DNA of 64,000 bases. Origin: Rhodamnia argentea. Lineage: Eukaryota > Streptophyta > Magnoliopsida > Myrtales > Myrtaceae. The notes beneath the pieces were generated by a model. The model was not told the origin of the DNA. It did not search any database and saw only the letters and a list, made by a program, of their open reading frames with translations. The position numbers and the translations under genes were made by a program. Positions 24,574 through 64,000 of the stretch are shown here, piece by piece. Every line of letters starts with the position of its first letter. Position 1 is the first letter of the stretch. The DNA is taken from contig NC_063150.1 in the NCBI RefSeq assembly GCF_020921035.1, forward strand, positions 4,030,001-4,094,000, read 5' to 3'.

Positions 24574-25431
24574 CTACCTGATGGTGACAAACTTGTTAGT
24601 ACCATGTTTCGCCCAGTGAGTCCTCAAGTCAATGGGGTTAGCGAAGTTATATCCCTCGGACGCAAGTTTCTCCAACACCTTCTTAAATGCTCCTATACTC
24701 ATCTTCCTGCCTGCTATCCTTGCTCCGCGCCTTTTGGTGCTCATGGGCAAGGGATACGTTGACAAGCCGGTAGTGCAACAAGCAGATTGCCACCCACCAG
24801 AGCCCCAGCGGTAACACTGCTGAGGTGCCCCCGTACACGAGCAAACTGGAATAGGGATACACGAAATATCCATGTTGATCCCATTTATCATTAATTCCGT
24901 AGCTTTCTTGATGGTTCGTGCTCGTGGAACAGAAGGAGTAGTCTCAGCCTTGGGAACCCGAGGACCTCTCTTAGCTTTCTTGGGTTTTGGAGATTTCGGT
25001 CCCTTCGGCCCTGGCCTTTTCTTCGAGGGACCATTTTCCATAATCTCATTACCTATACCTACCTGTTCTACTTGAGTCACCCTTTCATCCTTTGATAAGT
25101 CAGGCGGCTGCACCATCTGCATATGATGAGTTGTGGACGTCTCCGGTATCATGGAATAGTTGTGGCTCCCTGATATGGCATTGAAGAACTTCTCCCTGGG
25201 GTTCATCCAAGCATCCCTCATGTAATCCATCGGGTACATTGTCTGCGACGGCCCAAGATCCCTGTGATGAAACGCACCTCCGTTGGAAGCCACCATCACA
25301 GCAGCATTCCGACTGTCGAAGAGTGGCTTCTCCGGCACAGACGACATGAGGTTAAGGCCGAGGCCTCTCATGGTCGCCGTGGGCTCATAATAACCCCAGT
25401 TTCTCATATTCAAACTATTATCGCCATCCAT
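24574..25431 (-). CDS. BASIC PENTACYSTEINE (BBR/BPC) GAGA-binding transcription factor, class I, 285 aa
   Basis: Nuclear protein that binds GA/CT-rich DNA and recruits repressive complexes at developmental genes. The start is the Met of MDGDNSLNMRNWGYYEP, because RNWGYYEP is the N-terminal signature of class I BPCs. The frame is open 13 codons further upstream, but those residues do not fit the family. Residues 137-161 are a Lys/Pro-rich nuclear localisation region (KKRPGPKGPKSPKPKKAKRG). Residues about 187-285 are the DNA-binding domain: the Cys cluster VCSCTGAPQQCYRWGSGGWQ followed by SACC, then STKRRGARIAGRKMS and the end HWAKHGTNKFVTIR. An additional Cys (191, DISCIP) precedes the usual five. 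The CDS has no intron. Confidence 0.96.
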   Translation of the reverse strand: MDGDNSLNMRNWGYYEPTATMRGLGLNLMSSVPEKPLFDSRNAAVMVASNGGAFHHRDLGPSQTMYPMDYMRDAWMNPREKFFNAISGSHNYSMIPETSTTHHMQMVQPPDLSKDERVTQVEQVGIGNEIMENGPSKKRPGPKGPKSPKPKKAKRGPRVPKAETTPSVPRARTIKKATELMINGINMDISCIPIPVCSCTGAPQQCYRWGSGGWQSACCTTGLSTYPLPMSTKRRGARIAGRKMSIGAFKKVLEKLASEGYNFANPIDLRTHWAKHGTNKFVTIR

Positions 25432-25533
25432 CAGCGCAGAGATTTCCGAACAAACTAAAGCAAAACTCAAACTTTCTTCACTTTGTTCCTCGGGATAATC
25501 AACCGAGGCATTTCAGGTCTCCTCAAAAACCCC

Positions 25534-52273: not shown

Positions 52274-54058
52274 ATGGACGTGGTACTGAGTTCAGGACAC
52301 AGAATGCCGACAATCGGGTTTGGAACATTCGCGATCCCCCTGCCACCACCCGACGTGCTGACATCCATATTCCTCGAGGCCATCGAAGCGGGGTACCGCC
52401 ACTTCGACACGGCATCGTCCTACGGCACCGAAGAGGCGCTCGGCCGAGCTGTGGCTGATGCCCTGGACCGAGGGCTCATCGAGAGCCGCAGCCACATCTT
52501 CATCACCACCAAGCTCTGGTGCACCGACGCTCACCCGGATCTCGTTCTTCCCGCTCTCAAGAAGTCTCTCCAGTAAGTATTTGCTAATTGGCCTTATGAT
52601 CTCCTCCTACTTTTTTTTCACTTGACACTCTATGCAGTTCTCGTAACACCTATCTCGCCAAATATTTTTGAAGACCACACCAGAATTTATTTCATGGGAG
52701 CAACGAAAATCATTAGTTTTCACTTTGATTTATAATAATCTGTTGCGTGCATTAATTTTTTTTTCCAATCTTTCCTCCATGTCATTTTAGCGCTTTTGTT
52801 GGGTTTAGTCAGGTTGTGTTCATGTTGCTTTTTTCTTTTGTTTGGCACTTGGTGTATTGTTGATTATATAGGAGGCTAGGGTTAGAGTATGTGGATCTGT
52901 ATCTCATCCACTGGCCAGCGAGAGTGAAGGAGGGAACCGAGGGGTTCGATTTCAAGGGCAAAATGTTGCCATTTGACATGGAAGGGACATGGGAGGCCAT
53001 GGAAGAGTGCTCCAAGCTGGGCTTGGCCAAGTCCATTGGAGTCAGCAATTTTGGCACCAAGAAGCTCTCTCAACTCCTCATGCGTGCCACAATTCCTCCT
53101 GCTGTTAACCAGGTAAAGGAAGAATCGATCATTCTAGTTTGATCTTTGAGTCGAAAGAGGTACCAAATCAAGATTTTCTTCAAGATTTATTACTTTTTCT
53201 TTGTGGGTCAATCATGATTTAGGTGGAGATGAATCTGGCGTGGCAACAAGCGAAGGTGAGGGAGTATTGTCGCAAGAAGGGAATACATGTGAGTGCCTGG
53301 TCTCCTTTGGGAGCAAATGGAGCTGCTTGGGGTTCATTAGCGGTCATGGAAAGTCCTCTGCTTAAGGAGATTGCTGTTGTCGGAGGAAAGACTGTGGCTC
53401 AGGTGATTTGTTATTTTCAGATCTTCTTTGGGTCTTGTGTTCCTTTTTTGAAGCTAGACATAGGTAAACCCTGGTCAAAATGAATAACATCATGCTGAGA
53501 GCAAATCCCATGAGGCATCCCACGAATAGAACAAAAGTCGAATGTTTCGACATTTTCATATCGGGAGCGAAGCCTGTAATCTTGCTCATTGGTTGTTGGA
53601 AGAAGGAAATTTGGAATTGATATTCATTACATATCTTGAAGGATTACATAATATTTATAGACCCTTCAGATAACTAGAACAATTAAAACTATCTTGAAAA
53701 CAAGCAACAATAAGTAAACATAATTTCCTAGATAATAATTTCCAAGACTCCAATTCACAAGATGAGCTTGGGTTACGAAAAGTCTTTTTCATTTCCAACA
53801 TTGGTTAAATCAAAATGTATCCATATGCAGGTTGCACTGAGATGGATATATGAGCAAGGGTCGAGCTTCATTGTGAAGAGCTTCAACAAGGACAGAATGA
53901 GAGGGAACCTGCAAATTTTCGGATGGGAACTTAGCCCGGAGGATTTGGAGAGGGTGAAGCTGGAGATCCCGCAGAAAAGAGGATTTGCAGGAGAGTTCTA
54001 CATTTCTGAAGATGGGCCTTACAAGTCGGGGGATGAGCTCTGGGACGGAGATGCTTGA
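52274..54058 (+). CDS. Aldo-keto reductase, AKR4 family (gene A, 315 aa)
   Basis: NADPH-dependent carbonyl reductase of the plant AKR4 group (methylecgonone reductase, chalcone/deoxychalcone reductase and codeinone reductase relatives); the substrate cannot be read from sequence. Exons: 52274-52572, 52872-53112, 53223-53402, 53831-54058; phases agree. The catalytic tetrad is complete: Asp45 and Tyr50 ([12 protein letters not shown]), Lys80 (ITTKLWC), His113 (YLIHWPA). Other family blocks are [29 protein letters not shown], and the cofactor-binding [11 protein letters not shown] near 256-266. It ends GDELWDGDA. The start [18 protein letters not shown] is the first Met and fits the family. A TATA-like TTAAATATC lies about 125 bp upstream. 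Intron 3 (428 bp) seems to contain an LTR-like fragment. It is the first member of a four-copy cluster. Confidence 0.95.
53590..53760 (-). mobile_element. Possible copia-type LTR fragment in AKR gene A intron 3
   Basis: Read on the minus strand it has CTATAAATATTATGTAATCC followed by an AATGAATATCAATTCC segment, an arrangement common in R regions of plant copia LTRs. No paired repeat or target duplication was found, so this is tentative. Confidence 0.3.
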
Positions 54059-55860: not shown

Positions 55861-56240
55861 GGAGCTTGCCTGGATGGCACGAGCAAAGGAGCCATCGCCC
55901 TCTTGTGTAGAGATAGCCACAGGCGCCTAGGCAACGATTTTGCTCATTCATTTAAGGCGGCATGGACAGCACAGGCGGAGGCATGAGTGCTACCGAAGCC
56001 CTAGAGTTCCTCAAGTCTCGACCTGAAGAGGATATGGAAGTAGAAACATATCACGTTGATTCGATAATCTGCCTTTCAAATACGGGGCAGGTCACTTGGG
56101 AGTTGGACGCACTTATCAGCGAAACCCACAGTCCGTTGAAGCCCTTATCGAAGCCGAAAGTGGCCCACGTAAGTAGAGAGACTAACAGAGTAGTTGATTG
56201 GGTTGTGAAAGCCCATAAAAAGAAATCGTCAACCGAGTAA
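55861..56240 (+). pseudogene. LINE-derived RNase H domain, broken
   Basis: Two frames together show the RNase H-like end of plant LINE ORF2. The first (frame of 55861) reads GACLDGTSKGAIALLCRDSH...FAHSFKAAW and stops. The second (through 56240) reads SATEALEFLKSRPEED ... VTWELDALISE ... VSRETNRVVDWVVKAHKK. A frameshift near 55980 separates them, and no reverse transcriptase part remains upstream. It is followed by a LINE-like tail (AATAAATGAATAT then T/A tracts near 56330-56352). Confidence 0.8.
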
Positions 56241-56439
56241 ATGGGTGCTCTATCGCCCTCTGGACATTGAGATTTACTTTGTTTTGAAGTTTGTGGAATG
56301 TATTCACGAACTCTATCATAATAAATGAATATATTTTTTTTTTACAAAAAAAAGTACAAATATTTTGTAACAACGCCTTTGCTTCTGACCGCACGCAAGA
56401 ATAGTGAAAAAATTTCCATGACAACGAGGGCGGCTTTAT

Positions 56440-56911
56440 AAAATCTGTCTTACATTGCACATGATCTTTATTAAAAGCCCAAGCCAACTATAATATATAA
56501 ACACGACTTTGCATTTTCTTATTCTTGATATTAATATGAAGATTCTTGATACTAACATATAAAATCTGTCTTACATTGCACATGATCTTTATCAAAAGCC
56601 CAAGTCAACTATAATATATAAACACGACTTTGCATTTTCTTATTCTTGATATTAATATGAAGATTCTTGATATTAACATATAAAATCTGTCTTACATTGC
56701 ACATGATCTTTATCAAAAGCCCAAGCCAACTATAATATATAAACACGACTTTGCATTTTCTTATTCTTGATATTAATATGAAGATTCTTGATATTAACAT
56801 ATAAAATCTGTCTTACATTGCACATGATCTATATCAAAAGCCCAAGTCAACTATAATATATAAACACGACTTTGCATTTTCTTATTCTTGATATTAATAT
56901 TAAGATTCCTT
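56440..56911. repeat. Tandem array, 121-bp unit, 3.9 copies
   Basis: AAAATCTGTCTTACATTGCA begins at 56440, 56561, 56682 and 56803, exactly 121 bp apart; copies differ at only a few bases (e.g. GATACTAAC/GATATTAAC, AGCCAAC/AGTCAAC). Each unit includes CAACTATAATATATAAACAC, a TATA-like motif. The last unit merges into single-copy sequence resembling it (AACTATAACGTATAAAAGG at 56937), which is the presumed promoter of the broken AKR psi-B. Confidence 0.93.
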
Positions 56912-56944
56912 CAAACAACCTCTCCCTTCAAGTCAACTATAACG

Positions 56945-56952
56945 TATAAAAG
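56945..56952 (+). promoter_or_regulatory. TATA box of AKR psi-B
   Basis: TATAAAAG about 155 bp upstream of the psi-B ATG. The following leader (TTCATTTTCTTCTGCTTGAT ... TTCCTTCAAACAACC, then a CT run at 57061-57085) parallels the leader of intact gene B (TTCATTTTCTTCCGCTCG ... CATTCCTTCTCATAAAACC, then a CT run). Confidence 0.6.
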
Positions 56953-57285
56953 GACTCTCCATTTTCTTGGGCTTGATTTCATTTTCTTCTGCTTGATATT
57001 AGCATTAGTGTTCCTTCAAACAACCTTTGCCTCCACATTTTCTCTCACTAGATCTCCACCCTCTCTCTCTCTCTCTCTCTCTCTCTTAGAGAACAGAATC
57101 AGCATGCACGATGTCGTAGTCTGAGAAGTAGTGCTAAGCTTGGGTGAGAGAATGCCACTGATCGGCATGGGCTGCGTAGCGAGCTCTCCGCCACCGCCGC
57201 CGGATGTGTTGGGTACCGCCACTTTGACACGACGGCATTGTACGACTCCAAGGAGGCACTCAGCTGAGCTGTGGCCGAGGCCCCG

Positions 57286-58417
57286 TGTTGAGTCTAGCAA
57301 TATCACCTAGAGAGGGGGTGAATAGGTGATATGAACGATTTTGAAACTTAATGCGGAATAAAAATAATTTCAAAACACAATCTGAATAAGATTAGTAAGA
57401 AGACGTGTGAGTAATTTAAAGCACAATAAAATGAGTTTAGGGAAGAGAAGAATACACGCAACGATTATAGTGGTTCAGCTTGTTAGGCCTACGTCCACTC
57501 TCCCATGATGACGATCGATTGGCTGGATTCCACTACAATGAATCAAAAGAGGTTACAAGAGATTATCACACTCAAATGCTCTTACAAAACCTCTCAGAAA
57601 TAATATACTTAACTCTCGAAAATAAGTATGTGAATCTGAATAATTCAAGCACTTCTGAAATTATATGTTTCGATCTTCTCTCTTGGTCACCATAAATCTT
57701 CTTTTATACTCCTTTGCTTCCAAACTAGCCGTTGGACAATCTTTCAAAGGCTTGCTCTTCGATCATGGATTGGACGTCATCAATCGTGATTGAACGAGAC
57801 CGTATCTCAGAAGATATGGTAACCGTTGGAGTAGAATCTGAACTCTTTAGATTCAATCACCTATACAACTAAATCATCGGTTTCCAAAAGTAGAGTTAAT
57901 TCAAGTAATCAATAATTCTTATTCTTGGAAGGTAATATCCAATTGTAAATATTCTCCAGATCCGATTGAAAAAGAACTTGTCAATCAAATAATACAAACT
58001 TCCATACAATATACCGCCAATATCAAAAACCCGCCAAACGTAGGTCTTCAGAATCTGTTTGAAAGATATTGCAGAATCCGAACATTATTCAGAAGCAGCC
58101 TTCAGAAGTAGAGGCTCTCCGAATCTAAACAGACTTAGGAACAGTACCTCTGAGCTTCAATAAAGTCCTTGCTGACATGTCACATAAATCTTCAAAACGA
58201 CAGGTCTTGAGAGATAGTAACATTCTCCATCTAAAGGACTTAAGAAGCAAATACATGACAACTATCACTTGAGTCTGAATGTCAATTTTGGATCAATATA
58301 AGCTTTTGTTCACATGTTCATCCTGCAATGAAAAGTTAATAAACATTATACAGATTCTTTCTGAATAAGGATAGTTTTGTCAGAATCAAAATATTCAGAA
58401 GTAGAGTTTTCTCAACA
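57286..58417. mobile_element. Solo LTR (1132 bp) inserted in exon 1 of AKR psi-B
   Basis: Begins TGTTGAGTCTAGCAAT and ends TTTTCTCAACA (TGTTGA/TCAACA termini). It is flanked by CCCCG (57281-57285) and CCTCG (58418-58422), a 5-bp target duplication with one change. Joining the flanks restores the order of AKR exon 1. There is no internal coding, so recombination between LTRs has removed the body. The CACCTAGAGAGGGGGTGAAT and TATAGTGGTTCAGC...CCTACGTCCACTC stretches resemble LTRs of the SIRE/Maximus copia group; orientation is therefore probably +. Confidence 0.88.
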
Positions 58418-58899
58418 CCTCGGACGGGGGGCTCATCGAGAGCTGCAACAATATCTTCATCACCACCAAGCTCCGGTGCACCGAGGCCCATCCCGATCTT
58501 GTTGTTCCTGCCCTCAAGAACTCTCTCGAATAAATTCATCAATTTGGCTTCTCTCCACCTCTTTTTATACCATGACATTACAGTTCTATATAAAAAGACA
58601 GATTATATATAATTTATTCATTATTGTTATATCCGCATCGAGATTTCGCGAGAAAAGATGTTTTATGCAATGGGTTAATCGCCGTTTAGGTGGAGATGAA
58701 TGTGGCATGGCAACAAAAGAAGCTGAGAGGATATTGCAAAGAGAAGGGAATACATGTGAGCAGTAAACCAAGTAAGAACGCAAAAAAGGAAAAAGAAAAG
58801 GGAAAAAAGGAAAAAAGCAAAGAAGGAAAACAGAAAAATAAATGAAAAACTCGTTAAAAATATTTGAATATAATTAAAAATTATCCAAGCTAGTGTCGG

Positions 58900-59090
58900 T
58901 CCTTCCACGAAAGGACAATCGGCATCCACGTGAGTAGTTTCCAGGAAAAATTATATGGATGGACTCAATTTGCAACACATAAAAAGGTTTAAGACTCAAT
59001 TGGTAAAAAATAAAAAAAAAATAGGATTGAATTGACAAAAGTGCACTATATTTAGGACTTTTTGGATAATTTTCCCAGAATGGATAGGCC
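58900..59090. mobile_element. Family A MITE, right-end fragment (copy 5)
   Basis: AAAGGTTTAAGACTCAATTG, GGATTGAATTGACAAAAGTG and TTTAGGACTTTTTGGATAAT match the right arm of family A. It lies in the former intron between psi-B exon 3 and 4 remains. Confidence 0.65.
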
Positions 59091-59358
59091 AGTTACCGTC
59101 CTTATTCATACATAAAAGGGCCAAAAAAAATCTTTAGTCATGATTTATTTCCAATATAGATGTTTGTATGTGTTTGCATTATGAATATTGTTTTACAATG
59201 CGTGGACAGATATATCAGTATAAAAGTTGCACTGCGATGGATCCATAGGATTGAACAAGGAGAAAACGAGTGAGGAGCTGCAAATCTCGAAGAGAAGAGG
59301 ATATTGCAGGAGAGACTTTCATTTTTGAAGACGGGCCATTCAAGTCACTATGAGCTCT

Positions 59359-61711
59359 AAATACCCTTACAAGATCTTGCATAACAACTTCATATTAAAT
59401 TCCTCGTGCGTTGCAATTATATAGGAACTGAACCTGATGTTTTCAAGAATAAGTTTGAGAATAATGTGATGTTTTGTCAAAGGATCGATCCTCTGAATTT
59501 TTTTTTTCCCTTCTTGTTGTGTTCTCTTAAGTATGTAAGTTGTATCGGATCTCAACACTTTTGGAGGTGTACTATAGACAAGACCGGGAACCTTTTTTTG
59601 CAAGCGTGCCAAGATGCTTTACATCAAAATCCTAATGTCAAAGGTTTTGTCAACAGATATTCCTGATGCACTTAGACATAATTTATAGGGTCTCGCTAGC
59701 ATGACAGCGTGATAATATATCGGTGGAATACTAGGTATAAGATCAGAAATTGGTCCTATCATGATTGCCATTCACATTACTTGTGGTTGAGATTACATCG
59801 CTATCTTGTTACCTCGTCAGCTTCTTAAATCCCTACTTTATAAAGGAGATTCAAACTTGAAAGCATTAATCACACGTGTAATGAGAATAAGTAGAACATT
59901 AAAACAAGTCTAATATACATCTTTAATTTTGCTTAACAAGAAACCTGGAGCTCTCATTAACAAATTTTCATAAAAATGGATTTCCAGCTAATCTTGGGGA
60001 CGCTAATTAGATGACCCCAATAAAAATGTTACGATTTTATGGAAGCCTTAATTGCACATAAAACGAAAAGAATTGTACAGTTAAGTCACGTTGAAAGATG
60101 CTTGAAGCCGAGGTTCGGTCACATACGTATTCAAATAACTTCCGGAACCCGACAATCTTCATCCAATGGATATTCCGAATAAGTTTTCGGTTCCACAAGT
60201 TTACTCTTTTCTTTTAACAAAAGGATATTTCAAATACCAATATTTATATACGGCGCTCATTTTAACACCAATATATTTTTTTTAATCTTGAAAAATGATT
60301 ATGTAAGTGCAAACTCAGGTGAGTTTGCCCGAATTTCTTGTCATTTGCACCAAAGTGATTTTTTTTTTCTCATAGTTGGCACTAAAGTAATTATTTTTTT
60401 GGATAACTTAAGTGCCAATTTTTTTGAAAAATGATTATTTAAGTGCCAACTCTAGTGACGTCGCCGAAATTTCTTGCTATTGGCACTAAAATGATCGTGT
60501 TTTCTTCGATTTGGCTCTAAAGTGATCGTTTTTTGGATCACTTAATTGTTAATTTTTTGAAAAATGATTATTTAAGTGCCAACTTTGATGAGGTCGTCGG
60601 AATTTCTCGACATTGGTGCTAAATTGATCGTTTTTTTTTTCGATTTGACACTTAAGTGATTCCAAAAAAAAAAATATTGGCACCAAAGTTAGCGCCGTAC
60701 ACAAATATTGGCACTTGAGGTGTCTTGTGCCCTTTTCTTTCTTTAAACTGTGTAATTGTATGAAAGGAACAAAAACATTTATAATTTACATATGACAGTC
60801 AAGCGCAACTGTGTGGTGATCTCTCTTGCGGATGGTGATAAACCGCCCACCTTTGTTCGTTCTATGTTCCAATCTGTATGAACCGAACCTCGTGTTTTTC
60901 ACTGTCACAATCTCTTCTATTACCCTCTGTGTGGGAAATGGCAAGTAGGGAGGGAGGGGAAAAAGAGAGAGAGAAAATTCAAGGTAAATTAGGTAATTGG
61001 GTCGGGTCTGGAGGCGGGTCTCAACAACGAAGTCATCGACGAACCGAGCCGGCTATATATTGACGCATGCACCTATGTCAAAATGGACAGAGAAACCGAA
61101 AAAATTTGAACGGACGGCTTTGACTTCAACGAGCCACCCCACCTGAAGGTACCAAGATTTGCGCAGTCAAAATTCAAAATATTCTAAAAGTATGTCACAT
61201 GGAATTCAAGGCCCCTTGTTGTAGAACTAGAAAAGCACATTCATGAAAAATAAAATATTTATTAGATACTATTAGATATCTATTTCTTTATTTCTAGACG
61301 TTACTATCTTTTTATGATCATGTGTCTCAGTGCAATTTAATATGATAATGTATTTTAATATACACTAAAAAAAATGGCAAATGACTTTTTATTTAATTGG
61401 GTAAGTCCGTAAATTCGAAATTTTGTCGAGTTGTATAAGTAAAAGTTAATAAGTTTGTACGAAAATCGCAAAGCAATTATGCAAGTATTGAAAAGTTGTG
61501 GGACGTTGTCTTGGCAGAAGGTGGGTCATTGTCAACATTTGCGCAGTCAAAATTCAAATTACGTGTCAAAGACGGACTTCCCAAACCCTAGAATATATTT
61601 CCACCACGTTTTAAAAATGGATGTCTATCTCTTCTCGTTTACTTGTATTCCCGCGTACATCACACGCTCACGCAACAGACACAGACACATCCCGTCGCAC
61701 GAGGGACAACG
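59359..61711. other. Intergenic between psi-B and psi-A
   Basis: No gene recognised. It holds the 133-bp repeats at 60290-60690. From about 61055 (TTGACGCATGCACCTATGTC) and 61530-61710 it carries sequence homologous to the gene A promoter and leader (compare 52072-52270: TTGACGCATGCATATACGTC; GTCAAAGACAGACTCCC). Confidence 0.55.
60290..60690. repeat. Diverged tandem repeat, unit about 133-136 bp, three copies
   Basis: GAAAAATGATTAT begins at 60290, 60426 and 60559. Each is followed by AAGTGC(C)AA, a G(A)GT-rich segment, GAATTTCTxG/GAAATTTCTTG, CATTGG and CACTAAAGTGATCG-like words. The whole block is very T-rich; the words AGTGCCAA/TTGGCACT are mutually inverted, so it can also fold back. Confidence 0.75.
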
Positions 61712-62270
61712 ATGGAAGTTGTACTGAGCTCAGGACACAGGATGCCGTTGATCGGGTTCGGGACGTTGACGATGCCTCTGCCACCGCACGACGTGTCGAC
61801 TTCCGCTTACCTGTGCGTCATCAGGCCAGGTACCGCCATTTCGACACTGCGTCCCAGTATGGCACGGACGAGCCGTTTGGCCGATCTGTTACCGAAGCTG
61901 TTAGGATACACATGTGAGTTGTGTTAGAGAAGTCATATATCAGATAATTGATGTGGTGTTGAGCTATTAATATGTTTTAGTTGGTCTACAACTCATTGGC
62001 TTAAGCTTTTGAATAAAGATGAGTTTAATTGGATATATTGACAAGCTCGGATTTGAACTTCCTATTAGTGATCTCTCCCTAGGTGAAAGTATCGGACTTT
62101 TGCTACGCATTCCCAACAAAAGCTGTGAAGCACGGCCTCATCAAGAGCCGTGACGAGATCTTCATCACCACCAAGCTCGGGTGCGGTGACGCCCATCCGG
62201 ACCTCATCGTTCCCGCCCTCAAGAACTCCCATCCGGATCTCATTGTTCCCGTCCTCAAGAACTCTCTCAA
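61712..62270 (+). pseudogene. AKR pseudogene psi-A (A-type, exon 1 only)
   Basis: The start [18 protein letters not shown] matches gene A ([18 protein letters not shown]), as does the leader. A frameshift near 61825 moves the continuation to another frame ([20 protein letters not shown]). About 200 bp of unrelated DNA (roughly 61905-62127, with LTR-like GGCTTAAGCTTTTG) interrupts exon 1. It resumes with [19 protein letters not shown] 36-bp unit (62194-62229, 62230-62265) is duplicated in tandem, doubling [12 protein letters not shown]. The exon 1 donor GT (62271) is kept but exons 2-4 are absent before gene B. Non-functional. Confidence 0.88.
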
Positions 62271-62988
62271 GTAATTAATCATACCTAGGGGGCCGACTGT
62301 TTGAAGGAAAACTGTTTTTGGGAAATTATTTTTCGACTTTCCAATTTTGGATGATAGAAAATTAATTGTTCTCGGGAAAACTTTTTTCACAAACTAAAAA
62401 CGACAAACTTAGATTGAGGACCAGACCAGTGTTGCAGCCCTTGCCTTGTGGCTAGCAAGGGTCGTCGATAGCAAATGGAAGACTCACTAAGGCTGTTTAA
62501 GTTAGATTTCTCGGATTAGCTCCCGGAAAGAGCTAGCCCAACAGAAGCAAGACCGACCTCGGAAACTCCGCATCTCCGACTTGAAAGAGTTAGTTGCCCA
62601 TCTCCCATAGTCTTGGATTCCGCTGTCCCTTTGCGCTACGACTAAGTAGGCCGGATTTCACAAAATTAAAAAGGAAAAGAAAGAAAGAAAAAATAAAAAA
62701 ATAAAAAACATATAAATTATAAATTGTCCAATTTTTTTTTTAAAAAAATAACGTGTTTATGACTCACTTAATATAATTAGATAAGTCATTTATGGCATAT
62801 TTAAATTTCATTCAAAACTCATTAAATTGTTAGGTAGCCCGTTTATGGCTAAGCTTGTTTTCAAAATTTAAGCCAATCAATTTAATACTCACACTATTAA
62901 ATACGAGTTAAAATCTGGGCTCCGTACCTATTTTGCTACGAAGAGACTTTCCATCTTTTTATGCTCGAGTTCATTTTCTTCCGCTCGT

Positions 62989-62996
62989 TATAAATA
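62989..62996 (+). promoter_or_regulatory. TATA box of AKR gene B
   Basis: TATAAATA 93 bp upstream of the gene B ATG, followed by a leader ending in a CT run (63050-63073). Position and context are right for a plant core promoter. Confidence 0.65.
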
Positions 62997-63049
62997 CGAG
63001 CATTCCTTCTCATAAAACCGTCAAAGAATCCTTCCGACATCTTACACTT

Positions 63050-63073
63050 CTCTCTCTCTCTCTCTCTCTCTCT
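63050..63073. repeat. (CT)n run in the AKR gene B leader
   Basis: Pure CT run ending 15 bp before the ATG; psi-B has the equivalent run at 57061-57085, and gene A lacks it. Confidence 0.9.
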
Positions 63074-63088
63074 GAACACAGAGCACCA

Positions 63089-64000
63089 ATGTCCAACGTC
63101 GTGGTCCCAGAAGTGGTGCTGAGCTCGGGCGCGAGAATGCCGCTGATCGGGATGGGTGGGGCGGCGACCAATCTGCCACCGCCCGACGTGCTTACATCCA
63201 TATTCCTCGATGCCATCGAAGTCGGGTACCGCCACTTCGACACAGCGGCATGCTACGGCTCCGAAGAGGCGCTCGGTCGGGCAGTTGCCGAGGCCCTGGA
63301 CCGAGGGCTTGTCAAGAGACGCGGGGACATCTTCATCACCACCAAGCTCTGGTGCGCCGACGCCCATCCGGGTCTCGTTCTTCCCGCCCTCAAGAAGTCT
63401 CTCCAGTAAATTCTTGATCATTTGCCTTCTGATCTCTTCCTGTTCATCTTGACTGCTTGGCACTATATACAGTTCTAATAACCCTAGAAGTCAGAAATTA
63501 GCTTCCAACACCATACAAGAAGTTCTTATTGAAAAGGAATAAAAAAAAAATTAGAAGAAATCTCTAAATGATCAACATGACGATAATATATGAGCATTCA
63601 CGAATTGATCCTTTAGATATTTCTTCCGATTTGTGGAAGATTCCACACTCCAACCATTCTGATTTTTTTCTTTTTGATTTGTTACTTAAATAGTTCCTCC
63701 ATTTAAAAAATTTACGCGATAAACATCAATTTTCACTTCAGATACATTATTATAAGTTGCATGCATTATTCACTTCTGATCTCTTCCTGTATATTTTTAC
63801 TGCTTGGTGTGTATTGATTTAAATAGGGGGCTCGGTTTAGAGTATGTGGATCTCTATCTAATCCACTTGCCAATAAGAGTGAAGGAAGGAACCGAAGGGT
63901 TCGATTTCAAGGGCAAAATGTTGCCCTTTGACGTGAAAGGGACATGGGAGGCCATGGAAGAGTGCTCCAAACTGGGCTTGGCCAAGTCCATTGGAGTCAG
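63089..64000 (+). CDS. Aldo-keto reductase, AKR4 family (gene B), 5' part, runs off the window
   Basis: Exon 1 63089-63405 and the start of exon 2 from 63827; exon phases equal those of gene A. The protein starts [20 protein letters not shown], with a six-residue longer N-terminus than gene A. The catalytic tetrad is visible: Asp51 and Tyr56 ([12 protein letters not shown]), Lys86 (ITTKLWC), His119 (YLIHLPI). The residue after that His is Leu, where gene A and most relatives have Trp (HWP). The exon 2 fragment reads [18 protein letters not shown] and onward, nearly identical to gene A. No disabling change is seen in the visible 164 or so residues; exons 3-4 lie outside. Function as for gene A: NADPH-dependent reductase of unknown substrate. 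Confidence 0.92.

Follow-up and report, generated by a model that had tools for sequence, protein, structure and literature searches.

An array of near-identical repeats, each with TATA-like strings, lies upstream of a broken gene in Rhodamnia argentea, and the question that it raises is whether such a structure serves regulation or is what mutation has made of a promoter. The window, the whole 64,000-nt stretch of DNA that was analysed and to which all coordinates refer, leads us to the latter answer: the array is likely a local promoter minisatellite, produced by ordinary mutation, young and unselected.

Genomic setting

Several aldo-keto reductase (AKR) genes, all on the + strand, are clustered at the right end of the window. 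Gene A (52274-54058) encodes, when its exons are joined, an intact protein of 315 amino acids that matches PF00248 with an E-value of 2.8e-53 and has codeinone reductase (7mbf; E-value 2.6e-103) as its best solved relative. Gene B starts at 63089 and extends beyond the window; its exon 1, in which PF00248 is also found, and the visible part of exon 2 are both open. Between these genes lie two AKR pseudogenes of the same orientation, psi-B (57104-59347), directly behind the array, and psi-C (from about 61712). The window also holds genes of the ZF-HD, BBR/BPC (GAGA-binding) and BIRD-IDD types, which are plant-specific, and it represents plant nuclear DNA.

Extent and internal structure of the array

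Tandem Repeats Finder places the array at positions 56437-56908, with a period of 121 bp, 3.9 copies, 98% matches and 0% indels, the top score among its 23 rows. The near-identical copies follow each other head-to-tail at a constant period, with spacings of 121, 121 and 121 nt between their starts, as in a local promoter minisatellite or tandem duplication. The 121-bp tandem array proposed in the initial annotation is thereby confirmed. Copies 1 to 4 occupy positions 56437-56557, 56558-56678, 56679-56799 and 56800-56908 of the + strand. The left edge of copy 1 is abrupt, and in a comparison at an offset of 121 nt the match does not go on to the left of 56437. The array starts about 200 nt past the end of a retroelement-like RNase H remnant (55983-56240; RVT_3, E-value 0.001, 19.4 bits, below the cut-off of 21.6). 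In copies 1-3 the last 12 nt form a patch, TTGATATTAACA (56788-56799 in copy 3), with a single base changed in copy 1. This patch is absent from copy 4, the presumed founder, which comprises 109 nt and is the only one to carry a continuation of the promoter (56909-56930) in its place. The initial annotation had the copies end in the presumed core promoter of psi-B, but the array stops at 56908, the promoter tail of copy 4 comes next, and the proximal promoter begins only after this tail, at about 56931.

Any two of the four copies differ at 1-4 bases within the 109 nt common to all (copies 1 and 2 at 2, 1 and 3 at 1, 1 and 4 at 4, 2 and 3 at 1, 2 and 4 at 2, 3 and 4 at 3). The variable sites amount to four of the 109 positions, namely unit positions 32, 36, 48 and 102, and position 116 varies too among copies 1-3. 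Position 48 alternates C, T, C, T across the copies, and at position 102 copy 4 has T, as does the proximal promoter. The unit is 73.6% A+T versus 59.7% for the window. A TATA-like motif is present in every copy, as anticipated, but each unit contains two of them rather than one: TATAAAA (position 1) and TATATAAA (position 58), both unchanged in all four copies. A search of the 64-kb window revealed no additional copy of the 121-bp unit beyond the array, and an exact 20-mer of the unit had 0 matches in IMG/VR, a test that is uninformative for a plant.

Promoter origin of the unit

The alignment of copy 3 with positions 56931-57060 reaches a score of 33.0, which none of 2000 dinucleotide shuffles equals (mean 10.0, maximum 18.0; z 13.9), and when 130-bp stretches from elsewhere in the window were compared, on both strands, the best score in 1940 comparisons was 19.4. 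With up to 3 mismatches, AGTCAACTATAAYRTATAAA occurs five times in the 64-kb window against a chance expectation of 0.01, one occurrence lying in each copy (56482, 56603, 56724 and 56845) and the fifth, at 56931, in the proximal promoter. The initial annotation had seen a resemblance between the unit and the psi-B promoter and had named AT-richness as the finding that would undo it; the resemblance holds and is not mere AT-richness, because the motif is in excess and the score lies above all 2000 shuffles. The unit can be divided into an upstream flank of 44 nt, a stretch of 65 nt that corresponds to P1 (the distal copy of the psi-B promoter) and the 12-nt patch; in copy 3 the first two pieces are found at 56679-56722 and 56723-56787. 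The adjacent promoter accounts for 65 of the 121 nt, and to this extent the amplified segment is, as judged by alignment, derived from it.

The psi-B promoter is itself present twice on the + strand, as P1 (56844-56930) and as the proximal P2 (56931-57035, both ends approximate), in which TATAAAAGG occurs at 56945 and an internal tandem of 20 bp spans 56960-56997. The two are 83.7% identical over 86 aligned positions. P1 is without a 20-nt stretch that is found in P2; the alignment of gene B runs through this stretch, and P1 has therefore probably lost it. The P2 region (56931-57060) aligns with positions 62900-63050 upstream of gene B with a score of 32.3, as high as 0 of 2000 shuffles, and positions 56938-57104 and 62930-63089 are 72.4% identical over 156 positions, a figure inflated by a common CT tract. 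The matches of P1 (score 19.6) and of the unit (16.8, over 42 nt) to the gene B promoter are weak, each being reached by 1 of 2000 shuffles, and both fall on one and the same promoter copy; neither a second copy nor an array was found upstream of gene B, which has a single promoter copy. The unit also aligns weakly with the region upstream of psi-C (13.8, reached by 27 of 2000 shuffles). Kinship of the array to the region upstream of gene A was rejected, since the score of 9.0 was matched or beaten by 1474 of 2000 shuffles.

When P2 is aligned with gene B, the TATAAATA of gene B (62989-62996, + strand, 100 nt upstream of the ATG at 63089) lies opposite TTGATATTA of psi-B, and the TATAAAAGG of psi-B lies opposite TACGAAGAG of gene B. 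The TATA box of psi-B is thus uncertain, as its counterpart in gene B faces TTGATATTA and not the site first assigned. P1 and P2 are closely alike at both TATA-related sites, implying that the psi-B lineage probably already had its arrangement when the promoter was duplicated.

State of the gene behind the array

The pseudogene psi-B, assigned to the AKR family by tblastn with gene A, carries a premature TGA at codon 7 and a net loss of 28 nt that shifts the reading frame. Its exon 1 is interrupted by a solo-LTR-like TG...CA insertion of 1132 nt (57286-58417), flanked by the 5-nt sequences CCCCG and CCTCG, which are alike at 4 of 5 positions, and the exon-1 splice donor has been changed from GT and lost. 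No tblastn match to exon 2 was detected in psi-B, and exons 3 and 4 persist only as fragments. There is no long open frame in psi-B, and a 33-residue peptide from it has no Pfam match. Judged by these lesions psi-B is a dead gene, in agreement with the initial annotation.

The second AKR pseudogene presents comparable features. Exon 1 of psi-C contains a 220-nt TG...CA solo-LTR-like insertion (61899-62118; flanks GAAGC and AAAGC, alike at 4 of 5 positions), an LTR-like insertion in exon 1 thus being common to psi-B and psi-C, and its exon-1 remnant displays a 36-bp tandem duplication (62192-62264). Upstream of psi-C lies a second array (60288-60660) with a unit of about 133 bp, 2.8 copies and 79% likeness, of which blastn found no other copies in the window. 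The presumed 5' leader of psi-B includes a CT tract on the + strand (57061-57086), and gene B has one too (63049). A BBR/BPC GAGA-binding protein gene that matches the whole Pfam profile is encoded on the - strand at 24577-25470, which puts it about 32 kb and 38 kb away from the two tracts; this is probably a coincidence.

Changes unique to psi-B were found at 9 of 83 first, 5 of 84 second and 16 of 84 third codon positions (14 of 167 for the first two together), in a tally that omits the stretch around the psi-B deletion. The corresponding counts at positions 1, 2 and 3 are 6, 2 and 15 for gene A and 4, 4 and 8 for gene B, and at 9 more sites all three sequences differ. The concentration of psi-B changes at third positions implies that part of its branch was still constrained, and psi-B would have lost constraint along part of that branch at most. 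Dating by codon position is underpowered, and it does not appear to fix the death of psi-B in time relative to the array.

Origin of the array

Sequence comparison supports a history in two steps: the promoter of the AKR paralogue psi-B was duplicated once to give P1 and P2, and a 121-bp segment comprising P1 sequence and 44 nt of upstream flank was later amplified to about four near-identical copies. Judged by divergence, the promoter duplication seems much older than the array, since P1 and P2 differ at 16.3% of aligned positions and the copies at 1-4 of 109 nt, although gene conversion could make the array appear younger than its true age. Duplication has affected this promoter at several scales, of 20 bp, about 87-105 bp and 121 bp.

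The first 121-bp duplication may have occurred when a DNA break close to an AT-rich palindrome was repaired. The near-palindrome TCTTGATATTAATATGAAGA, self-complementary at 18 of 20 positions, is located beside the unit junction at 56523-56542 and recurs at 56644, 56765 and 56886; the window contains 15 palindromes of this type, four of them in the array. The patch matches the nearby TTGATATTAATA, which belongs to the palindrome adjoining the junction, at 11 of 12 positions. A match as good was found for 0 of 358 window 12-mers of the same composition (either strand) and in 78 of 20000 permutations (+ strand). A patch copied from a nearby palindrome suggests break repair, during which these 12 nt would have been taken from TTGATATTAATA; alternatively, the patch could be a remnant of the original left flank that was replaced later. 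In plants, copied patches are often left at break-repair junctions. Natural insertions in humans and plants hinted at an origin of tandem duplications in error-prone break repair, according to PMC8355091, which cites Vaughn and Bennetzen 2014 and Schiml 2016. Unequal crossing-over or slippage would then have raised the copy number, perhaps with a step of two units, because the copies alternate at unit position 48, a weak indication from one site.

Because the gene behind it is dead, selection probably does not act on the array, whose effect may be at most stray transcription or local methylation. The unchanged TATA-like motifs would be compatible with selection too, but four variable sites in 109 give no power. 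That the array arose after the death of psi-B is not proven, part of the psi-B branch having still been under constraint.

Alternative readings of the array

Other explanations are partly compatible with each other and with the above, and the confidence placed in them need not add up to one. The array might be an active promoter with multiple starts, with a TATA-like box and a start region in every unit, from which several transcripts would arise, for example a long noncoding RNA running into psi-B. Such use is compatible with a mutational origin but unlikely. Every copy has TATAAAA and TATATAAA, which we take to be a plant-type TATA string by the plant consensus; the region 56400-57110 holds 9 of the 51 TATAWAW strings on the + strand of the window; and a GCCCA element, presumably a site II-like motif, starts 18 nt upstream of TATATAAA in all four copies. 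The window contains 57 strings of the GCCCA type, and the only one in P2 lies downstream of its TATA (56968). TATA strings travel with the duplication, however, so their count says nothing about use, the paralogous gene B has its TATAAATA at a different place, and psi-B offers no long open frame. From the literature on tandem repeats it is also possible, if rather improbable, that the array seeds RNA-directed DNA methylation in cis and maintains the silence of the region in the manner of FWA. Tandem regulatory elements introduced as plant transgenes are prone to siRNA-driven silencing (PMC11500991) and the silencing of FWA involves tandem repeats in the promoter (PMC3431836). Against this, no hairpin above chance is predicted on either strand, and psi-B, already broken, is no target of consequence. 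A fold of the two-copy stretch 56437-56678 was no better than those of shuffles (z 0.57 and -0.23 for the two strands), and Rfam gave no match for the whole window at gathering scores or for 56300-57120 at E-values up to 1; a structured RNA in the array was rejected on these grounds. It is very unlikely that the amplified core promoters form a chain of start sites with copy number as a dial, whose transcripts or methylation would set the expression of neighbouring AKR genes in cis.

An origin as a piece of a dispersed satellite or transposable element could account for the abrupt left edge, some 75-100 nt past the A/T-rich stretch that follows the RNase H remnant, and for the 44-nt upstream piece that the adjacent promoter leaves unexplained. 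We regard it as highly improbable: 65 of the 121 nt are adjacent promoter, into which copy 4 continues, the 3.9 copies lie at one place with no further copy within 64 kb, and find_repeats reported no inverted repeats flanking the array (56300-57110), only palindromes inside or between units. The initial annotation had further suggested a trans effect on gene B of small RNAs made from the array. The two loci are paralogous, the unit has its weak 42-nt alignment to the gene B promoter (score 16.8; 1 of 2000 shuffles), and outside the array the psi-B remnant has an exact run of 21 nt in common with A, B and psi-C, while 56931-57285 has a CT tract of 25 nt in common with gene B. The 21-nt run is coding remnant and the 25-nt run a simple repeat, neither of them within the array, whose longest exact matches to gene B (62850-64000) measure 9 nt (+ strand) and 8 nt (- strand). 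The idea fails for the array because no more than 9 nt of exact sequence are common to both, and its probability is close to nil. The 21-nt run, ATCTTCATCACCACCAAGCTC, lies in the coding remnant at 58422-59380; from a psi-B transcript, though not from the array, small RNAs matching A, B and psi-C might in principle arise.

Taken as a whole, the array is real and promoter-derived, stands before a dead gene and is best read as a mutational product, with nothing here that would indicate activity. It may show how a promoter minisatellite starts, through a single duplication that includes a copied patch and through subsequent growth, and it cautions that repeated TATA-like strings before a pseudogene are not to be taken as regulatory design. 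If the copy number varies between individuals, the array would be a handy marker.

Comparison with known systems

Among the papers listed, as far as titles and the starts of abstracts tell, no matching promoter or pseudogene minisatellite was noticed, which is not proof of absence in print. The R6 promoter minisatellite of apple MYB10 is similar in that a promoter segment is repeated in tandem ahead of one allele or paralogue and occurs once in the comparison sequence. R6 is described as five added copies of a 23-bp unit, bound by MYB10 itself, before a working gene (PMC5671642). By contrast, the unit here measures 121 bp and has TATA-like strings inside, and the gene behind it is dead; R6 has an intact gene whose product binds the repeat, whereas psi-B is broken and AKR proteins are an enzyme family. 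Arabidopsis FWA resembles the locus in its promoter tandem repeats around the start region and in a repeat structure that differs between lineages. The FWA repeats are located within a SINE region and work with small RNAs and methylation (PMC3431836). For the present array, the share of adjacent promoter in its unit (65 of 121 nt) speaks against a SINE or transposon location. The tandem duplications produced by break repair in plants are alike in the head-to-tail copying of a short segment and in a junction patch that resembles nearby sequence. Copied patches are typical of such duplications. What sets the psi-B array apart from these duplications is that the segment was further amplified to nearly four copies, following an older duplication of the same promoter.
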